Shown here: positions 2,162-59,930 of the stretch, in pieces
Position numbering within the stretch: the first letter of the stretch is position 1
Layout: the number at the start of each line of letters is the position of its first letter
Origin: Mesostigma viride
Taxonomy: Eukaryota; Streptophyta; Mesostigmatophyceae; Mesostigmatales; Mesostigmataceae
Length of the DNA: 64,000 bases
Direction: 5' to 3'
Assembly (NCBI GenBank): GCA_009746045.1
Contig: RPFO01000052.1
Span: 73,501-137,500 of the forward strand
Translations under genes and position numbers: made by a program
Notes under the pieces: model-generated
What the model saw: the letters and a program-made list of their open reading frames with translations, nothing else
The model's database searches: none
What the model was told of the DNA's origin: nothing

Positions 2162-2830
2162 TGTTACGGCCCAGACCTTTGTATGGGCGTAACAATGCCT
2201 TCAATAAATAAGTCGAAAGTCATTTGTTATTCGTTTGGGACTTTCGATAGCTCGCTTTCATAGTCCGCCGGACTATAGGACTCAATTCGGGACTTATTTG
2301 GGAATTTGTCCTAAGTTCGGGACTTTATGTGTTTATTTGGTATACTTTGTGTGTTCCGGACCAGCTATTTTGGGCCTAGCCAGAAGTACAAGATCTTCTA
2401 GGGGCCGGGCCGGCCCTAGATGTCATACAGAACCTATTGGGGCTTGACGGCAGTATCTGGAAGATCGGCGCGCATGTCGGCGCGCCTGCACACCAACTTG
2501 CCAGCTTGGTAGCGCAGCTAGGTGAAATTGGTCTGAGGACGATGGACTCTCTCTCTTTGGTTTGATGATTAATGAAACGAGTGTTGACGACTCTCTCAGA
2601 CCAAGGGGCACTAATCCGGATGTCATTTGCCTCATGACATGCCGTGTTATATAGCTAGATTAATTAATCATGCTATAAGGCCTAGCTGAGGATAAACCGC
2701 TGCTTAGTTAGTCAATTTACTGCGATCTTTGCTTGCTATCGCGGTACACGGATGCGCGGCTGTGCCGGCTTATTAAACTGCACCTTATACTAGATTAGAT
2801 CTTTCGCACCGTCCGGCTCCGGACGTAACA
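2162..2830 (+). repeat. 5' LTR of LTR-RT1
   Basis: 669 bp, bounded TGTTAC...GTAACA and nearly identical to 12408-13076. It contains an inverted repeat TTGGTCTGAG / CTCAGACCAA with about 68 nt between the arms, and a TATATAG stretch near 2649 that could serve as the U3 TATA box. The promoter role is inference. Confidence 0.93.
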
Positions 2831-3549: not shown

Positions 3550-3972
3550 ATGGCTAATAGTAATAATAGAAATAATATTAGATATAATAATGGACTTGGG
3601 GGTTGGGATAGTGATGTATCTAGGCAACTTTACTATGCTGTGGCACATGATGGAGGCACAGGGAAAGTAGGTATTTTCTATAGCTGGGTAGACTGCAAGA
3701 ACTATATAGTGGATAGGCATAGGGCTATCTTTAAGGGATTCAAGACAGCATGGGAAGCAGATAGGTTTATCCAGGAATACATGACACGTCCAGTAGGCTT
3801 GCACGTAGAGGCACCACCTCAGGAGATTAGGACTCGCCCAATGCCTAGGGGCCGTAGCTGTGCACCCAATAGTGCAACAGTAGAGAGCAGGACGGGGGAC
3901 ACACAGGCTGTCACAGTCACGTTCAGCCAACTCACTGTCAGCACCCCACCTAGGCAGCCACCTAGTTTCTAG
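3550..3972 (+). CDS. ORF0: Cauli_VI / RNase H1 hybrid-binding-domain protein
   Basis: A 140-aa ORF between the 5' LTR and gag. I chose ATG 3550 because it begins MANSNNRNN. Residues about 28-80 match the pattern of the RNase H1 N-terminal RNA:DNA hybrid-binding domain, also found in caulimovirus viroplasmin: LYYAVAHDGG, GIFYSWVDCKNYI, then IFKGFKTAWEADRFI. The family pattern is YYAVxxGxxxGIYxxWxxCxxxVxGxxxAxFKxFxxxxEAxxF. The C-terminal tail ends near AVTVTFSQLT, also present in LTR-RT2, so the whole ORF is conserved between two diverged elements. No RNase H catalytic domain follows; the pol protein carries its own. A role in binding RNA, RNA:DNA hybrids or reverse-transcription intermediates is inferred. 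A 159-bp gap separates it from gag. Confidence 0.7.
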   Translation: MANSNNRNNIRYNNGLGGWDSDVSRQLYYAVAHDGGTGKVGIFYSWVDCKNYIVDRHRAIFKGFKTAWEADRFIQEYMTRPVGLHVEAPPQEIRTRPMPRGRSCAPNSATVESRTGDTQAVTVTFSQLTVSTPPRQPPSF

Positions 3973-4131
3973 AGGAGTAGAGTACTAATTATAGCTTACT
4001 ATATAATAGCTACATTAGCAGAATAACGTAGGGCAGTCGCTTGGTTGATTGCTTGTGGGCATGTGCATGGCATTTTCCTCCTTCTTCCTCTCTCCTTCCT
4101 TCCTTCTCTTGTGGATGTGGTACTGGTAAAC

Positions 4132-6257
4132 ATGCCGCGGGGTAAAAAGAAGGTACGCGGCACGGCTAGGAGTCATTCCGAGGATGGAGGTGCAGACTTG
4201 GATAGGCAGGGCAGCCCAGAGTACCAAGTACAGGAGGTATCACAACAGGGCTCGTCCTACCAGCAAGGCAGTCCTGTAGGTCACCCAGGTGAGCTGGCTA
4301 GTACCTCCCGTGAGCCGCGAAGGCCACGAGGAGCGGATAGGATGGATAATAGGGAGGAATACCAGCCGCAGCGAATGCAGGCTGAGTATAACCAGCTGAT
4401 GGAACGGGCAGGTGATGAGGCCCGGCCCAGATCGAATCCCACGAGTGCAGCCCAGCACCTGGCAGTGCAGCCGCAGCAACACCCGCCAGTGCAGCCGCAG
4501 CAGCACCCCGTGCAGTCCCCACAGCAGCATTCGGAACAGCAACAGCCGTTGCCGCAGCAGTGGCAGCAGCAGCCAGTACAGCAGCAGCAGCCACCGCCGC
4601 CGCAGCAGCAACAGTGGCAGCAGCCGCAGCAGCTTCCGCCGTTGCAGCAGCAGCAGCAGCCGCTAAGCCAGCCGACCGGGTCGCAGATGTTTGGTCCGCT
4701 TAGTCAGAACGCGACCTATTATCACGCGCAACGTGCCCAACGATTACAACATCCCTGGGCGAGCGGTCGACGGGTTTCTTTTGGCAGTGACCTGCAGTCC
4801 AATGCGACATCGCTGTGGACCCAGGACGAGGCTAGGGTTCCACCGCCGGTATACGATGAGGGTGGGCCCGCGTCGTCCCATCCGGCGCGCAATGTCCCAG
4901 CAGCCGGACCTGCGCGGCCGAGCGTGTCGCATGGCAATAACCTCAACTTGAGTCGCATGGCACCCAGTGATCCTGGCTACGCGCATCCCTCGTCTGTCTG
5001 GCTACAACGCAGCGCGACTAGGTCAGCGCCTGCATCGGCAGATGACTCGTTGTCGATCTTTAATGTTCCGCCATATCGCGCAGTGGGCGGACCTCGGGCC
5101 GACGCGTTTAAGGCGCCGCCCATGCCTGACTTTAAACCAGTGCCCAAGCTGCGCGCGACTATGAACCCTCGCGAGATCGACGAATGGACGCGTATGTGGG
5201 TACAGATCTACTGGGCGTGGTGCAACCACAATGGGTGGGAGCTAGCTACCGAGGTTCTTATCTCCTACGTCGTCACCAACTGCATGGATCCCTCAGTGGT
5301 CGGCATACTCAACTGTGAGAGTGTCGCGTCGCGCTTGTACCCTCGCACAGTAGAGGAGCTACTAGAGCGCATTGAGCGCAAGCTGGTGCCCCCTGACTGG
5401 AAGCTCCACGAGCGTCTGGCTTTTTCCAAGCTACGCCAAGGCACCACACCGTTCCGCGAGTTTCTGACAGAGTTTGAAGCATTCTCGGCTCGCCTTGAGG
5501 ACTTGACCTGGACCGAATATAGGGCGCGGTTCATTGAGGCGCTGAGTCCGGAACTCCTAGATGAGGTGCTAAAGCGCTTTGCTGAGATACCGTGGGAGCA
5601 GTGGGATGTGATCGAGATCCAGCAGTACCTTCTAAAGGTGTCAGATGTGCTCGCACGCCGCCGCGCAGCGGTCACCTATCGGCATGCTGGTGCTGCACCG
5701 CGTCGCGTCCACTTCACTACGGTGGACCAAGATGGGTCCTCTGAGGACATTATCGACCACGAGCAGGAGGACGGCGACTATGAAGCGCCCCAGGTCAATG
5801 CAATCGATGCGTCCAAGGCGCGATGCTTCCGGTGCGGCGAGGTCGGTCATCTCAAGAAGGACTGCACGCGCGACCACCACGGGATCGCGATCGTGGCGAC
5901 GAGCAGACGTCACCCCGTTTCTCCGGGCCTGCCTTCGGTAAGCGCCCGGAACAAGCATGGCGCCCAGACCGGCCTCGCAACGCGGGCGAGCGCGCAGCCA
6001 AGCTGCAGGACGCCCGGCAGCGTCCCACGCAGCACCAGACGCCCCGCGCTACGGGTCCTTCGTTCCAGCAGGTGAACCGCGAGTTGAATGAGTTGTTCTC
6101 ACAGCAACAGGATTCGGGTAATGGCGCCTCGGGGGTTATGGATGGCAAGGCGGTCGCCGGTTATGGGCATGGCGACGAGGAGGATGAGGTAGAGGGGGAA
6201 GAGTGGACCGGGCGGTCGAACGAGGCGGTCTCCCGGCCCTCCGCTCCTCGTGCGTAG
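4132..6257 (+). pseudogene. gag: gag of LTR-RT1 (one frameshift)
   Basis: Capsid/nucleocapsid precursor. Start chosen at ATG 4132 (MPRGKKKVRG) because the sister element starts similarly (MPTRYQ at 15697); the frame is open further upstream. The N-terminal third is Gln/Pro-rich. The capsid-like core includes PREIDEWTRMWVQIYWAW and RARFIEALSPELLDEVL, and is followed by a CCHC zinc knuckle CFRCGEVGHLKKDC at 5824-5865. Just after the knuckle (about 5870-5915) the frame shifts. The conserved tail (RFSGPAFG, DRPRNAGERAA, an acidic Glu/Asp stretch) continues in the third frame to the stop at 6257, as in LTR-RT2. A pyrimidine-rich tract (4076-4110) precedes the start in both elements. Confidence 0.88.
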
Positions 6258-6260: not shown

Positions 6261-7392
6261 CCCTGCCTACACGGATAGAGGTAGATGTAGGACAGGTAGA
6301 TAGGGTAGCGCAAGTCAGTAACGTCGGACAGACAGACAGCTTAGATAAGGACACCCCGTTGGTAGCGAATACCAGCGCGGGCGCAGAATCAGTCGTTACA
6401 GTAGATAGTCGCACCCCGCTTGTAGCGAATACAAGTGCGGATGCATCCTTGGGCGAGAACTTTGCCCCAAGCACGCAGCCGGCCACGGGTAGCGCAGCGA
6501 GCTCCGACCCGCCTACGCGCGCAACTCCGGCTGGTACCCGCAACTTGCTCCTGTTTAGGGGAGGTCTGGCTGTACCGGGATCAGCATTAGACCCCTACCT
6601 CAAGGACAAGACCGTCATGGACGTGCAGTTCATGGTGGACATGGGTGCGTCTACGTCGTTCATCAACGAGGCATTGGCGCGTCGCGCAGGATACGACATC
6701 CGGCCACATGCGACAGTGGTGAATGTGACCTATTCAGATGGTCGCAAGAGCCCCTCGCCTGGTCGGGTTGATATCAAGGCTGTGATTCAAGGCATCCCTG
6801 TGGAGCTCACAGCCACGGTCGCACCGCTGGGAGCTGCCGACATCATCATCGGCATCGACTGGCTGGACGCGCAGGATGTGGACATTAGCATTCGGCGTCG
6901 CGTGGTGTGGTTCCCTGACGGTTCCTTTTGGAGCCCTGTCAGCGAATACAAAGTGCAGGGCCCCGGCGTGCATAACATCACGCACGAGCGGGAAGTCACC
7001 CAGCCCCGCAACGCCTCGCAGATCCTCATGAGCCTCAAGTCACTGGAGAGTAAGCTGCGTCGAGGCAAGGAGTACTACATGTACCGTCTTGACCTCTCCA
7101 ACATAGAGGTTCTCCTTAATGAGATCGGCGTGGGGTTTACACCCGAGGAGACGGAGCGTTATAACGCGGTTCTAGCGCGACGGGAGAAGCTCTTTGACGA
7201 AAGCAAGCAGGAGTTTCCCCCGCACCGCTCAGTGCTCCACCGCATCCAGGTGAAGGAGGGCTATGGTCCCACGTCCTCCCCCATGTACCGCATGGGTCCA
7301 GTTGAGCTGGTGGAGCTGAAGAAGATCTTGATGGCGCTCTTGGAGCGGGGTCTCATCGAGCCTAGCAATAGCCCCTTCTCGGCTGGTGTGCT

Positions 7393-7586
7393 CAGTGTGA
7401 GCTAGTACGGCAATACGGCAATACGGAAAAACCTCGGCGTATTGCGTATTTCGTATAATACGTGTATTATACGCGTATAATACGGCGTACTACTAGCAAA
7501 ATTTCTAGTACGGCAATACGCCAAACCTCGGCGTATTGCGTATTTCGTATAATACGGCGTATAATACGGCGTACTAGCTCACACTG
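7393..7586. mobile_element. hAT-type MITE inside pol
   Basis: A 194-bp insertion with perfect 17-bp terminal inverted repeats CAGTGTGAGCTAGTACG and an 8-bp target duplication GGTGTGCT (7385-7392 and 7587-7594). An 8-bp duplication and CAGTG-type ends are hAT hallmarks. The interior consists of two related blocks of GTACGGCAATACG and TATTATACG palindromes and would fold strongly. LTR-RT2 has the uninterrupted site at about 21115. It introduces a stop in the RT domain and has no coding capacity. Confidence 0.92.
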
Positions 7587-10500
7587 GGTGTGCTACTGGT
7601 CCCTAAGCCTGGGGGCAAGTGGCGGCTCGTCACGGACTACCGGAAGCTCAATGCTAAAGTCCAAGTACCCCCTTCCGCGCATCGACGATATCTTCAACCG
7701 CGTCCAAGGAGCCACGTGCTTTACAGTCCTAGACTGCGCGGATGGCTTCTGGCAGCTTCGCATCGCCCCGGAGGATTGTCACAAGACGGCGTTCAACACG
7801 CCCTTTGGGCATTACCAGTTTCGGGTGGCCGCGATGGGTTTGTGCAATTCCCCCGCGAGCTTCCAGATGCTCATGAACGACATCCTCCGCCCTGGCATGG
7901 GAACCGCGCATCTTCCGCAGGTTTCCCGTGACCTCAAGGACCCCAACAGGGGCGTGAAGCCCCCGTGGTCCTACAAGCGCACATGCGCTCTCGCGTACCT
8001 GGACGACATCCTCGTGTACTCCAAGACTTTCGAGGATCACTTAGAGGACGTCGACACAGTGTTGCGCATTATGGAAGAGGAGCATCTTTCGGTCCGCAAG
8101 GCCAAGGTCCGCGCTGGACGCAGCGTGCCCTTTTTGGGTCACACCCTCTCTGCCGCTGGCGTCGCGACGGACCCCGCAAAGATTGCTTCCATCCAACAGT
8201 GGCCGACCCCGACCGACGTCAAGGGTGTGCGCAGCTTTTTGGGTATCGCGTCATACTACCGACGCTTTATCCCCCGCTTCGCGACAATAGCTGCCCCCAT
8301 CAACGCCCTCCTCAAGAAGGGTGTTCCCTTTGTCTGGTCGGAACCGTGCCAGCAGGCCTTCGAGGCCCTCAAGCACAGCTTGACCACAGCACCCGTGCTC
8401 GCTATCCCGGATCCGTCAAGGCCCTTTGTGGTGGCCACGGACGCGAGCAAGGTTGCGATTGGCGGCGTCCTCCTGCAGGACCAGGGTCAGGGGTTACAGC
8501 CGGTTGAGTATATCTCCCGCACCATGATCCCCGCCGAGCGTAACTACCCGGTGCATCAGCAGGAGCTTCTTGCTGTGGTCTACTGCTGTCACACTTGGCG
8601 CCATCATCTTCTCGGGGCTCAGTTTGACGTTGCGATTAGCGAGCAGGGGGACCTTGATCCCCACCGGCTGATCATCCACACGGACCATCGGCCCCTCACG
8701 CATCTGCTCGCCCAACCTAACTTGACGCCCCGTCAGGCGCGGTGGATGGAGTACTTGTCTCAGTTTGCCCCTTTCAAAATTCAGTACGTGAAGGGTGCAG
8801 AGAATGTGGTCCCGGACGCCCTTTCTCGGCGGGCGGACTACGCAGATTTTTATGAGACTATGGACGTACTTCACACCACATGTGGCTCCGCGCAGGAGCC
8901 TGGCTCGCCTTGTGGCGACCCAGGGTCGCCGCACAGTCGCTATCTGTTCCACACCGGTCGCACGACCCAGGACGACCTGTCTCCCGACTGGGAGGCCGCG
9001 CGCGAGGACGTGCGCGCCCCCGGGGAAAGGGAGGGGTCCCGGTCACGAGTGCCACTCAGCCACGTGGTACCGGCTCAGGGAATTTTTCACCTGCAGCGCA
9101 TCGGGCCCCCTACCATTTTTTCGGAGTACGTGCACCAAACCCTTGAGGAGGAGGCGGACACGTACACGATCACTTCTGTCCTGGAGACGTTGATTAGTCG
9201 GTTCACTGTCACGGAGCCCGCGGCCTTAGAGGCAATCAGGTCGCACCCCAAGCAGATGGGCAAGCTCTCGTGCAAGTTCCAGGACGGGCGACTCTATGTC
9301 ATGGTGAGGCCAGACTGCTGGCGCCTGTACGTCCCGGAGATATGTCGAGCGGGTCTGCTCCATGAGCTCCATGACTCTCTCGCCGGTGGCCACCAAGGGA
9401 TCCACCGCTTGCTGCCACGGGCCCGAAAGAACTTCTATTGGCCAGGCATGCGAGAGTACATTGAGACGTACGTGCGCAAGTGTCCATCATGTCAGATCAT
9501 GAAGTCCCGCAATACGGGCTCACAGGCGGTCCCCCAGACCCTACCAGACCCAGTGGGCCCTTGGGATTCCTCGATGATGGATTTTGTTGGCCCCTTCCGG
9601 AAGACCAAGAATGGCAACAGCATGATTCTGGTTTTCCTGGACCGTTTGACGCGCATGTGTCACCTGGCACCATGTCCGGCCGAGCTCACGGCCGAGGCTT
9701 GCGCTAAGCTATACCTTCACCACGTGTTCAGGTACCACGGACTCAGCCGGCAATTCATATCGGACCGAGACAAGCTGTTCACGGCCCGCTTCTGGCAGGA
9801 GTTCTTTGAATGCCTGGGCACCAAGGTGTCGCTGGGGACAGCATATCACAGCTCGTCCTCCCACCTGGTGGAGAGGCTGAACCGCACAGTGCAAGAGACC
9901 ATGCGCCACTACACCGACGCGGTGGGAAGCAACTGGGAAGAGTTCTTGGGTTTGGTGGAGTTCTCCCTGAATAACGCCCCCCAGGCAGCTCATGGCTTCA
10001 CACCATTCTTCCTCAACACGGGCAGGCATCCGCTCACGCCGACTGACCTTCTCACAAGCCCAGCCTTAGCTGAGAAGTCGGTCCGGCGAGACACCCTCGA
10101 AGGGGTGGAGAGGTTGCTGGTCCAGATGCGCCAGGCCCATGACAGTGCGGTCAAGGGCTACCGGGCCGCCGCAGAGCGCTACATGGCGAGGACTGCTGGC
10201 CGCCTAGATGCGCGCACGCCGGCCATCGAGGTGGGCGACTGGGTACTGGTGGAAGGCCCCCGCCTAGGACGTTTCTCTGAGAAGGTAGAGGGTGAGCTCA
10301 AGACAAAGCTCCGTCCTATGTTCCTGGGGCCACACAAGGTTCTGGAGAAGCTTGGAGATGTGATGTTCAAGGTGGACATCCCGAGCTCCTGGAACACTTC
10401 CTCCAACTTCCATCGAGACCAGCTCAAGTTATACCACCAGAACTCCATCCAAGGTCGGCTCAACCCGCCGGCCCCTGTCGAGTACAACCCCGAGACTGGA

Positions 10501-10759
10501 GAACAGGAAGACGAGGTGGCCGAGATCGTGGACCACCGGGACATCAAGCGTGGGAGAGGTAGACAGCGACAGTATCGCGTACGGTGGCGTTTTGCTCAGC
10601 ATGATTACGAGGATTCGTGGCGAACCGAGAATGAGCTAGAAGGGTGTGAACGTCTGCTTCGCGAGTATAAGGCCAATTAAGCATGCCCTCCACTAGGCTA
10701 CCGCGAAGGTAGTAGTGGTGGGGGCGCTATGACAACGGGCTTGATCACGTGTAGCCAGG

Positions 10760-12074
10760 ATGCCGCGAAGGCACTTGTGTTATTCACGTCGATGTGTACG
10801 CACCATCGTGGTAATTGGGTCGAAAAGCATCCCCAACGCCATGTGCAAGCAGGGCCGACTCGGCGAACGGGCGGTTGTCACACCTGCGGTGACACCGATC
10901 CAGCAACAGGACGGTGATGTCGTGCGAACCATTCGGACTCAGGGCACGGGCGGAATGACGGTTCTTGTCGGGACGGGACCGACCCGGCGAACGGGCGGCT
11001 CGACCGACTCGACTAAGCTGGATTCTGAGGATATCGAGCGCAACCAGAAACGGCCCAAGTGGAACCGGATGCCCAGCGAGAAGTTAGACGTCGCGCATGT
11101 ACGAACGAGGTGTCGGCGGGCAGCGTCTCCGCGGATTCCCAGAGTCCGCGCCGAGAAGCGAACTTACTCGATCAGAGCGGGTGGCCCGCGTGGAGACGTC
11201 CCGCGCCCATTTACCAGAGAGGCGTGGCCCGATACCAGCGGTGGGCTTTATATCTCCCGCGCAGGGGTCTTTGATCGTACGGGCGGTGGCTCGACCGGCG
11301 CCATGGACGGTGGGCGCTTACGTCAGCGCGTTTCCCGGCCCACAACGAGTACGCCCCTTACGCGAGTTTCGGGGTGTTCCCGTCTACATTGAGCTGCCAC
11401 CATCGCCGTTCGTGGCCGTCGACAGCGCGGACTATCATCGACCGCAACCGCTGCACTTTGAGGCAGGAACTCATGCGTATGTGGAGCGAGGCTCCATGCG
11501 CGAGCTAGTCTGCTTCGACTTGCACCCAGGGAGGGCGGCCCCGCGACCCCAGGACTGCCTAGAATCGACGCCAGAGGGTTCTGGTACGCGTTACGGCCCC
11601 AAGCGGGAGCTGCCAAAATACATGGTAGATGGTAAACCTCGAAAGGTTGACTGTCCCAAGTATGCTCCGTGCGAGGGAGAGGCATTCCTCGACTGGGTTG
11701 TGCCCAACTTTGTGAGGGCTCCGGGCTTTCGCTTCAACGCTCTCCAGGTGCGCGTCGTAGTGTTGACCATGGCGGGAGGTTTCTTTGCGGAGCATGGATG
11801 TGGGGTTATTGATTGGAACGCGGGCACAATCATGTTCACGCACCCGCAATACCTGGCCGCATTCATGTCGTACTGGCCCACCGGGACGTGGGTAGACCTC
11901 GCTCAAACGCGCACCAACGTGAACGAATACCAGCTCGCATACAATGCGGATCACCTCGCTAACCCCGGGAAGATCCTCGAGGAAATTGGTGAGCAGGGTC
12001 GCCAGGTACTCCACGAGTATCGTCAACGGAAGGCGCGGTCGGGAGGGGTGGGCCCCAGCATTGGAGGAATGTGA
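10760..12074 (+). CDS. 3' ORF (ORF3) of LTR-RT1, conserved, function unknown
   Basis: Coding sequence in the env-like position after pol. The best conserved part is 11330-12060 (third frame, open from about 11097). It contains PLHFEAGTHAYVERGSM, EGEAFLDWVVPNF, GCGVIDWNAGTIMFTHPQYL and SYWPTGTWVDLA. The matching protein in LTR-RT2 reads PLVFQAGPWCAVDRGAYW, EGRAFLDRAVPDF, CGVVDRSALTLIFTHPQYY and MWPRGTWVELS. Upstream, 10760-11100 is open in the second frame with NRMPSEKLDV, like NRMPSDLRVD in LTR-RT2, so a frameshift or splice near 11090-11110 joins the two parts. No signal peptide, membrane segment or known domain is visible, so I do not call it an envelope. Confidence 0.65.
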
Positions 12075-12407: not shown

Positions 12408-13076
12408 TGTTACGGCCCAGACCTTTGTATGGGCGTAACAATGCCTTCAATAAATAAGTCGAAAGTCATTTGTTATTCGTTTGGGACTTTCGATAGCTCG
12501 CTTTCATAGTCCGCCGGACTATAGGACTCAATTCGGGACTTATTTGGGAATTTGTCCTAAGTTCGGGACTTTGTGTGTTTATTTGGTACTTTGTGTGTTC
12601 CGGACCAGCTATTTTGGGCCTAGCCAGAAGTACGAGATCTTCTAGGGGCCGGGCCGGCCCTAGACGTCATACAGAACCTATTGGGGCTTGACGGCAGTAT
12701 CTGGAAGATCGGCGCGCATGTCGGCGCGCCTGCACACCAACTTGCCAGCTTGGTAGCGCAGCTATAGGTGAAATTGGTCTGAGGACGATGGACTCTCTCT
12801 CTTTGGTTTGATGATTAATGAAACGAGTGTTGACGACTCTCTCAGACCAAGGGGCACTAATCCGGATGTCATTTGCCTCATGACATGCCGTGTTATATAG
12901 CTAGATTAATTAATCATGCTATAAGGCCTAGCTGAGGATAAAACGCTGCTCAGTTAGTCAATTTACTGCGATCTTTGCTTGCTATCGCGGTACGCGGATG
13001 CGCGGCTGTGCCGGCTTATTAAACTGCACCTTGTACTAGATTAGATCTTTCGCACCGTCCGGCTCGGGACGTAACA
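12408..13076 (+). repeat. 3' LTR of LTR-RT1
   Basis: 669 bp starting TGTTACGGCC and ending GACGTAACA, followed by GCACC (13077-13081), the copy of the target site found at 2157-2161. Confidence 0.95.
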
Positions 13077-13081
13077 GCACC

Positions 13082-14862: not shown

Positions 14863-15206
14863 ATGCCCAGACGCAACAGAATAAATAAGGGTGGTCAATC
14901 TGGATTTCCTTACTATGCCGTGGCCCATGATGGGGGCGAGGGTAGACCAGCCATATTTTACAGTTGGAAGGCATGTGAAGAACACATCAAGGAGAAGATA
15001 ATGTCCAAAGACTCTAGTGCTAAGTGGAAGGGGTTTGATAACATCACGGATGCAGATAGGTTTGTTATAGGGAGCACATGCCATTGCCTGAGGGGATGCA
15101 CACCACTCGTGAATGCTCTAAGCCACCCACGCACAGCAGCCAGGAGGAGGGGACAGCAGTTACAGTTACCTTCTCTCAGTTGACCATTGGCCCTAGCAGA
15201 CAATAG
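14863..15206 (+). pseudogene. ORF0 of LTR-RT2: hybrid-binding-domain protein (frameshifted tail)
   Basis: Begins MPRRNRINKGG at ATG 14863. The domain YYAVAHDGGEG, AIFYSWKACEEHI, then KWKGFDNITDADRFV matches ORF0 of LTR-RT1 and the RNase H1 N-terminal / Cauli_VI pattern. The frame then slips near 15070-15140: the open frame ends at 15183, while the conserved tail TAVTVTFSQLT continues in another frame to TAG at 15204-15206. The position between the LTR and gag is the same as in LTR-RT1. Independent decay of this copy together with a shared domain and tail indicates past purifying selection. Confidence 0.68.
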
Positions 15207-58165: not shown

Positions 58166-59930
58166 GAGGAAAAAGCTCTCAGCCCCTGTGGGCATATACA
58201 ACTGCATATCTAAGTAGACACCAGCAGCTTGTCCCGCAGGGTGATGAACCGTGCCCTTCCAACAGGGCCTTGGTGAAGATGTCCGCCAGGTTGCCCTTGC
58301 CAGGGCAGTGACGCATGCAGATGGAGCCCCCCTCCACCTGCTCACGGATGAAGTGGTAGCGCACGTCGATGTGCTTGGTGCGCTTGGGGTGCAGAGGGTC
58401 CTTGGCCACGGCCACCGCGCCAGTGTTGTCGCACAGCACGGTCGTGGGCCCCTCCACAGGTGCACCCAGGTCTCCCAGCAGGCGCCTGAGTGGCAGCACC
58501 AGCTGGGTGACGCTGCTCGCAGCAATGTACTCTGCCTCGCCGGAAGGCAGAGCAACAATCGGTTGCTTGCGGCTGCACCACTCCACGGGCGCACTGCGGG
58601 GGCCCCGGTACATGACCAGGTTGCCCGTCACAGAGCGCCTGGACTCTGGGCAGTTAGCCCAGTCAGCGTCAGTCTACGCCTCCAGCCCCCCTTCCTGACC
58701 ATACCGCAGACCCTTGTCCCTCGTGGTGTAGAGGTACCGGATCAGGCGGTCGGCAGCCTCCATGTCGGCCGCTGTGGGTGCCTGCATGTGCTGGGCCAGT
58801 TGGTTGACAGCAAAAGCAATGTCTGGACGTGTCCACAGCGCGGCATACAGCAGGGCACCAGTTTTGGACTGATACAGCTGGGTGTCTTGGGCATTACACA
58901 TTCCCCCCTCGCGTTGGCCGGGGACTAACACGGGACACATGCACTGACAGGGGTGCGTACAGGGTAGGAGGGAGAAAGCCCAAAACGGGCAGCCATGGCC
59001 TCAATATACACATTCTGGTGCAGGGAAAGAGATCTGGAAACAGGGTCGACAAGAAGAGAAACACCGAGGAAAAAAGAAGGGTTATCTGACTCGGTGATCT
59101 GAAACTTGTTGGCCAAACGATAAGACCACGAGGCCAGCCAGGAAGAGGAAGGGCTGCCTGCAATAATGTCGTCGACATGGACAAAAACAAACGTACGAGA
59201 CGAGGGGTACACTAACAGGCAGGCATCCGTTGGGCTTTGTACAGCACCATCGGAAAGAAGATAGGCCCGAAATGTTTTGTGCCAGTTACGTGGCGCCTGC
59301 TTGATGCCATAGAGGCTGCGTTGCAGCTTCCACACCAGCAGGTCACCGGCGGCATCACGTTGCTCAAAGCCGGCAGGAGGACGAACATAGACGTCCTCAG
59401 AAAGCGGGACGTACAGAAACGCAGTACGAACATAAAGTTGCTTCACATACCCAGACGAGACACCGGCAAAAGCCAGTGCCAGACGAATGGTAGAGGAACG
59501 AACAGTAGGGCTAAAGACCTCAGTGAAGTCGATGCCCTCCCACTGAGCAAAGCCCTTGACAACAAAGCGGGCCTTGAAACGGCCATCGCTTTTGACAGCC
59601 AGCACCCACCGAGATGGAAGCACCTTGGCGGCGCGAGGAAGGGACTGGGAAGAAACGAGCGAATATACATACTGCATGCTCGCGAATGCTAGACAGCACA
59701 CTATCCATCGCAGCACGCCACTCAGGGCTAGCATGGGCCTCAGCAAGGAAGGGATGGTGGAACCTGAGCTAGCACGGAATGAGAAAGTATCAAACATGTC
59801 ACGTACACTCATATAGTCAGGGTAAAAACGAGCCCATTTAGGGGAAAACACGATCGAGAGGGGTTGTGGGCAACACCTGAGCGAGGGGATCATGTGCAAC
59901 ACCATCGGACACCAGCGCAGCAGTGGCCAT
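58166..59930 (-). pseudogene. Ty1/copia pol remnant: RT and RNase H
   Basis: RT part (59905-58925): VVKGFAQWEGIDFTEVFSPT, VWKLQRSLYGIKQAPRNWH and the catalytic FVHVDDIIAGS. Then LLYAALWTRPDIAFAVNQL (58850-58794). RNase H part (58631-58179): ALPSGEAEYIAASS, LCDNTGAVAVA, KRTKHIDVRYHFIREQV. A frameshift near 58930 and an in-frame stop near 58670 disable it. gag, protease and integrase are absent. Its 3' edge (TGTTATACTTGACACG on the - strand at 58162) could be an LTR start, but no second LTR is seen. Confidence 0.9.

Follow-up and report, generated by a model that had tools for sequence, protein, structure and literature searches.

A stand-alone RNase H1-type hybrid-binding domain gene precedes gag in Ty3 chromodomain retrotransposons of Mesostigma viride

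The window analysed here is a 64,000-nt stretch of the streptophyte alga Mesostigma viride (assembly GCA_009746045.1, contig RPFO01000052.1, positions 73,501 to 137,500). At 3550..3972 on the forward strand it holds an open reading frame (ORF) of 140 amino acids, here called ORF0, which lies between the 5' long terminal repeat (LTR) and gag of a retrotransposon. A first-pass annotation had read the product, which contains the motifs YYAVAHDGG and GIFYSWVDC, as a hybrid-binding domain (HBD) of the RNase H1 type standing alone, with no nuclease attached. A profile search bore this out: PF01693 (Cauli_VI, the RNase H1 N-terminal domain) matched residues 28-73 (3631..3768; profile positions 2-44 of 44) at 33.8 bits (E = 4.1e-8), compared to a curated cut-off of 21 bits. 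Pfam found no RNase H family in ORF0, which lacks the fusion of HBD to RNase H that marks RNase H1; an RNase H1-like host ORF in the same genome (L011) has the two domains together. Directly C-terminal to the HBD is a GLHV motif (residues 83-86; 3796..3807) whose G and H are unchanged in all eight rows of an ORF0 alignment. Single-sequence comparison with solved chains placed RNase H1 HBDs at the top with weak scores (3bsu, E = 0.022; further matches 1qhk, E = 0.045, and 6vrd, E = 0.26), and a fold search with single-sequence models of ORF0 gave no matches at E <= 0.001, RNase H1 being absent among the matches listed. The ORF at 3550-3972 is confirmed as a real gene, one that a Ty3 chromodomain clade of this alga conserves as an accessory; we infer its mechanism below.

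The carrier is a Ty3 chromodomain LTR retrotransposon on the forward strand. Its 5' LTR (2162..2830; ends TGTTACG...CGTAACA) and 3' LTR (12408..13076) are 98.2% identical and are flanked by the target-site repeat GCACC at 2157-2161 and 13077-13081. After ORF0 come a 159-nt spacer reaching from its stop to the gag ATG (3973..4131; a pyrimidine-rich tract and 3 ATGs), gag (4132..6075; 647 aa, with a Q/P-rich N-terminal part and a CCHC zinc knuckle, zf-CCHC above cut-off), an aspartic protease ORF (6617..7405; gag-asp_proteas, E = 2.1e-10) and a stretch encoding reverse transcriptase (RT), RNase H, integrase and a chromodomain (7651..10680; RVT_1, RT_RNaseH, Integrase_H2C2, rve and Chromo). The LTRs, the target-site repeat, gag, the order protease-RT-RNase H-integrase and the chromodomain agree with the earlier placement of the ORF in a separate slot ahead of gag in a Ty3 element. 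Retrotrans_gag scored 18.1 bits in the window gag, under its cut-off of 24.1, and exceeded the cut-off in two related elements (L040 and L042). In this copy RT begins in another reading frame, which splits the RT match, so the copy is probably defective, though its ORF0 is open.

Genome searches covered the 440-Mb assembly from which the window comes. A fungal host, which the element type had first suggested, was rejected: the assembly gave 33 chlorophyll-binding matches, several of them on contigs with ORF0 matches (C446, C1413, C1457 and C1901 among them), and a 236-aa LHCII is 100% identical along its full length to a Mesostigma viride entry. Among the best 150 of 1178 candidates scored with ORF0 (151 matches reported), at least 76 copies were full length (residues 1-140) and stop-free; with the PF01693 profile, the best 150 of 1764 candidates were all above the cut-off. 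A search with the gag core (best 150 of 2735 candidates) provided 116 rows of at least 70% identity, which were used, and 34 rows at 61-63%, which were set aside. In 98 of the 116 rows a same-strand ORF0 match lay 500-2500 bp upstream, mostly at 1450-1650 bp, and 11 of the 18 rows without one had an ORF0 match 2.5-20 kb upstream.

Eight families were picked by RT and gag similarity, as a sample rather than a survey of all Ty3 elements, with the element described above as family 1. The first-pass annotation had proposed looking for the ORF in related elements, and it occupies the same pre-gag slot in seven of the eight families, family X being without it. Family 1b (L039, L044) has an ORF0 ~70-75% identical. 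For family 1c, eight upstream stretches were taken from the 34 rows set aside, and seven contained an ORF0 match; in L050 the HBD and the C-terminal tail (see below) are in different frames, and L047 has an insertion, its stretch stopping short of the ORF0 slot. ORF0 was present in 2/2 elements each of family Z (L057, L058) and family Y (L055, L056). Family 2 has it ahead of gag-pol in L040 and L041, and also in L026-L038, which were covered with 1.5-kb flanks only. Family 3 encodes a double HBD ahead of gag-pol in L042, and its ORFs recur in L012-L017 and L021, some of them shortened or with stops. The window itself holds the broken ORF0 of a second Ty3 element (14863..15183, forward strand; found by tblastn and inspection of frames), with the HBD at 14911-15066 and the tail in another frame. 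PF01693 was above cut-off for the ORF0s of families 1, 2, 3, 1c, Z and Y and of this second element (29.2 bits), the relatives scoring 26.1-78.5 bits. ORF0 length ranges from 112 to 229 aa, or 112-142 aa without family 3.

In family X, tblastn and a local ORF0 profile detected no HBD upstream of a readable gag in L053, L059 and L060, nor upstream in the disrupted L054. Family X pairs with family 3 at 95/92 in an RT tree that is small (10 rows, 8 different, 186 columns; midpoint root). Since X stands beside the ORF0-bearing family 3, loss of ORF0 in X would be the simpler reading.

Outside this genome, query P0001 gave no matches among proteins at E <= 0.001 and none among viral contigs, where an RT query was also used; the ORF0 alignment retrieved a single protein from 7982 scored candidates. 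In EukProt, a 73-aa entry under the name Alexandrium andersonii matches residues 58-130 of the family 2 ORF0 (L040:1367-1756) with 100% identity. This match would be most simply read as transcriptome cross-contamination, in which case RNA of the family 2 ORF0 is made.

Other HBD-bearing frames were seen in the same assembly. The second HBD of the family 3 ORF0 (L042, L012) is nearer cellular HBDs (58% to L009) than other ORF0s (22-41%), and L009 itself (1159-2061, +) encodes two HBDs (141.3 bits in total) followed by a Pif1-helicase-like stretch under its cut-off. An HBD ORF at L043:5056-5940 (-; 57.8 bits) lies upstream of an endonuclease stretch resembling that of long interspersed nuclear elements (LINEs; 21.7 bits, under cut-off); HBDs may thus occur in another type of retroelement in this genome. 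In family Y, an additional open frame is located between ORF0 and gag (L055:1367-1909 and L056:1346-1861, +).

Beyond the HBD, ORF0 has a second conserved segment, recognised from its spacing, the alignment and selection by region: the C-terminal tail VTVTFSQLTV (residues 121-130; 3910..3939, +). The corresponding tails are VTVTFNQLTI (1b), VTVTFSQLTI (1c), VLRALEQLHL (Z), LTLEFGSLSI (family 2) and IVISIQNLCI (family 3). Six of the seven families keep four hydrophobic positions at phi-x3-phi-x2-phi-x-phi, 5-13 residues from the C-terminus, and the residues between them vary. Class 1a CRM1 export signals, as in the peptides of PMC4596688, have the same spacing. We treat the tail as a putative conserved docking motif, export being one conjecture for its use.

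Selection on ORF0 was estimated as the ratio of nonsynonymous to synonymous rates (dN/dS) by NG86; some dS values exceed 1 and are rough. The ratio was 0.17 for family 1/L039 (bootstrap 0.07-0.29), 0.20 for family 1/L044 (0.10-0.32) and 0.09, 0.11 and 0.11 for three family 2 pairs, so that the five diverged pairs span 0.09-0.20. As a yardstick, family 1/L039 gave 0.31 for the N-terminal part of gag, 0.13 for its C-terminal part and 0.06 for pol. When ten pairs were split by region, the ratio from HBD to GLH was lower than that of the linker in all seven pairs with both values finite. Synonymous and nonsynonymous changes in the tail numbered 3/0, 5/0, 3/0, 4/0 and 0/0 in five family 2 pairs, 3/0 in L045/L049, 0/1 in L045/L048, 8/2 in family 1/1b and 7/3 in family 1/1c. 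A dN/dS below 1 across elements, which the first-pass annotation had proposed as a check, was obtained in the diverged pairs and supports purifying selection on ORF0; two close pairs gave ~0.5, one of them with an interval reaching 1.16.

Tyr at human RNase H1 position 29 and Trp at position 43 are invariant in 8/8 aligned ORF0s, family 3 being left out; there the first HBD has His at the Tyr29 position and the second keeps Tyr. We presume that W43 and K59 of the human HBD make nucleic-acid contacts. In human RNase H1, Y29 and K60 contact the DNA backbone, and R52 and A55 reach 2'-OH groups through their main chain (PMC7657459). According to the same source, the ligands of HBDs are RNA:DNA hybrid and, with lower affinity, double-stranded RNA (dsRNA); the Drosophila and human domains prefer the hybrid, and the yeast domain prefers dsRNA. 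ORF0 is likely to bind nucleic acid.

The layout for translation was examined in seven copies from five families. The spacer from the ORF0 stop to the gag ATG measures 93-184 nt and is ATG-free in 5/7 copies, each ORF0 contains 4-8 internal ATGs, and the family 1 leader has 4 ATGs. Since ORF0 precedes gag by this distance and holds these internal ATGs, plain leaky scanning to gag appears unlikely, leaving separate mRNAs, splicing and reinitiation as open routes. A pyrimidine tract before gag and, in family 1c, a CAG near the gag ATG are compatible with splicing. Fusion of ORF0 to gag by splicing was considered and is not supported, as the 60 nt that precede the gag ATG of family 1 contain no AG.

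Several features lie apart from ORF0. Two open frames at window 10760-12074 (+), between integrase and the 3' LTR, match no Pfam family, and tblastn detected no counterpart of them in L039, L040 or L042; L040:7666-9501 (+) is an open frame in the same interval. The N-terminal part of gag is rich in Q and P (window 4450-4680; L045-L052), and in family 1c the Q runs are long. The window also contains a copia-type RT at 58925-59905 (-; RVT_2, E = 1.4e-45) and an RVT_1 fragment at 1049-1534 (+; E = 5.3e-10), and ARAGORN detected no tRNA in the 64 kb.

We propose, at roughly even odds (a probability of about 0.5), that ORF0 is a two-module adaptor acting on the element's own RNA. The RNase H1-type HBD would grip an RNA-containing duplex, either an RNA:DNA hybrid or folded RNA, the short hydrophobic tail would dock on a protein partner, and a loosely constrained linker would join both modules. 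ORF0 would bind the RNA of its own element, and the tail would recruit Gag or a host factor to handle the genomic RNA once it has been transcribed. The proposal rests on the profile domain, the slot, the spread over families, selection and the tail. Several observations weigh against it. Family X manages without ORF0 and family Y without the tail pattern, and the count of families with that pattern includes 1, 1b and 1c, which are near relatives. The pattern itself is weak, appearing in 0.6-19% of shuffled C-terminal parts, and most matches to export patterns are non-functional (PMC4596688). The tail comparison of 1c with Z has 5.8 synonymous vs 12.2 nonsynonymous changes, and the close pairs give higher dN/dS (L039/L044, 0.51, 0.23-1.16; L012/L042, 0.48, 0.28-0.79). 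Lastly, the position of human K60 is K in family 2 and G in families 1, 1b, 1c, Z, Y and the second HBD of family 3.

The step that ORF0 would serve is a matter of more tentative choices. The first-pass annotation had named coating of hybrids, organisation of assembly sites and an influence on translation as conceivable roles, and all three are still conjectural. Nuclear export by a CRM1-type route, in the manner of retroviral Rev or of CERV from the retrotransposon Cer1, is possible, and CERV is a precedent for an export factor encoded by an element (PMC10309623). It is doubtful, yet conceivable from the gene layout that disfavours leaky scanning, that ORF0 promotes translation of gag by letting ribosomes reach it on a polycistronic RNA, in the way that the transactivator (TAV) of caulimoviruses serves its long ORFs. 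The TOR-binding domain of TAV contains an RNase H1-type motif (PMC5902531), but none of TAV's other testable parts occur in ORF0, and that 2018 paper knows of no TAV-like reinitiation activator outside Caulimoviridae. Equally speculative is a role in reverse transcription, in which ORF0 would bind the RNA:DNA hybrid and protect or organise it, or tune RNase H. The ligand preference of the Drosophila and human HBDs and the HBD ORF near the LINE-like endonuclease are in keeping with this role, but a stand-alone ORF outside gag-pol has no obvious route into the particle, unless the tail supplies one, and Gag already has a CCHC knuckle.

Interference with RNA silencing, by which ORF0 would bind dsRNA and shield the element from RNA interference, seems improbable: HBDs can bind dsRNA, the preferred ligand in yeast, but the matching domain of TAV was reported to be dispensable for suppression of RNA interference (PMC5902531). 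ORF0 could also be a captured host HBD fragment, functionless and carried along by copying. The host has an RNase H1-like gene with an HBD (L011), a Pleurotus Helitron has captured a PF01693 gene (PMC4289320), and family X does without ORF0; the low dN/dS of the diverged pairs, the presence of ORF0 in nearly all sampled families and the constrained tail nonetheless largely disfavour this explanation, which we regard as very improbable. The two-module adaptor is our best reading.

Each known system resembles ORF0 in part. The RNase H1 HBD shares the profile and the conserved Tyr29 and Trp43, whereas ORF0 has no nuclease, replaces K60 in most families and adds the GLHV motif and the tail. TAV, also called viroplasmin or P6, belongs to the same Pfam family and is likewise a retroelement gene with a possible link to polycistronic translation (PMC5902531), for which ORF0 offers only a compatible gene order; unlike TAV, ORF0 is a protein of 112-229 aa encoded before gag in an integrating LTR element, and the likeness is one of Pfam profile and description only. 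CERV and Rev are accessory proteins that elements encode for their genomic RNA (PMC10309623), and ORF0 has an export-signal-like motif; no sequence relation is claimed, and export by ORF0 is a guess. The capE gene of the Pleurotus Helitron also puts a PF01693 HBD on a mobile element, but one that is a fungal DNA transposon, and the gene is described as captured (PMC4289320). Plant LTR retrotransposons have extra conserved ORFs beside gag-pol (PMC7264820, PMC9289625). The majority of these are located between pol and the 3' LTR, and the majority have no known domain, in contrast to the known domain and pre-gag position of ORF0. Such ORFs can lie upstream or downstream of gag-pol (PMC7264820), so the first-pass view that no standard Ty3/gypsy plan includes such a gene holds for an HBD in the pre-gag slot, which is unusual, and not for upstream ORFs as such. 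The conserved tail, the second ORF0 in the window and a family devoid of ORF0 go beyond that annotation. Among the papers listed in the literature searches, which were judged mostly by titles and abstracts, with subscription papers largely outside them, none described an LTR retrotransposon with an HBD ORF.

A broader scenario, which we consider speculative, is that the first gene of a Ty3 clade in an early-branching streptophyte alga encodes a dedicated duplex-binding regulator of the element's genomic RNA, Rev- or TAV-like in role and built on the RNase H1 HBD, and that caulimoviruses either inherited this use of the domain or arrived at it independently. In this alga, several families of LTR retrotransposons keep an RNase H1 HBD in a first gene of its own, accompanied by a second conserved module. 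Two questions thereby become testable: do simple retrotransposons, like complex retroviruses, encode regulators of their own RNA, and did the domain of the caulimovirus transactivator have precursors among green-lineage retroelements? The elements described here seem to supply an RNA-handling factor of their own.
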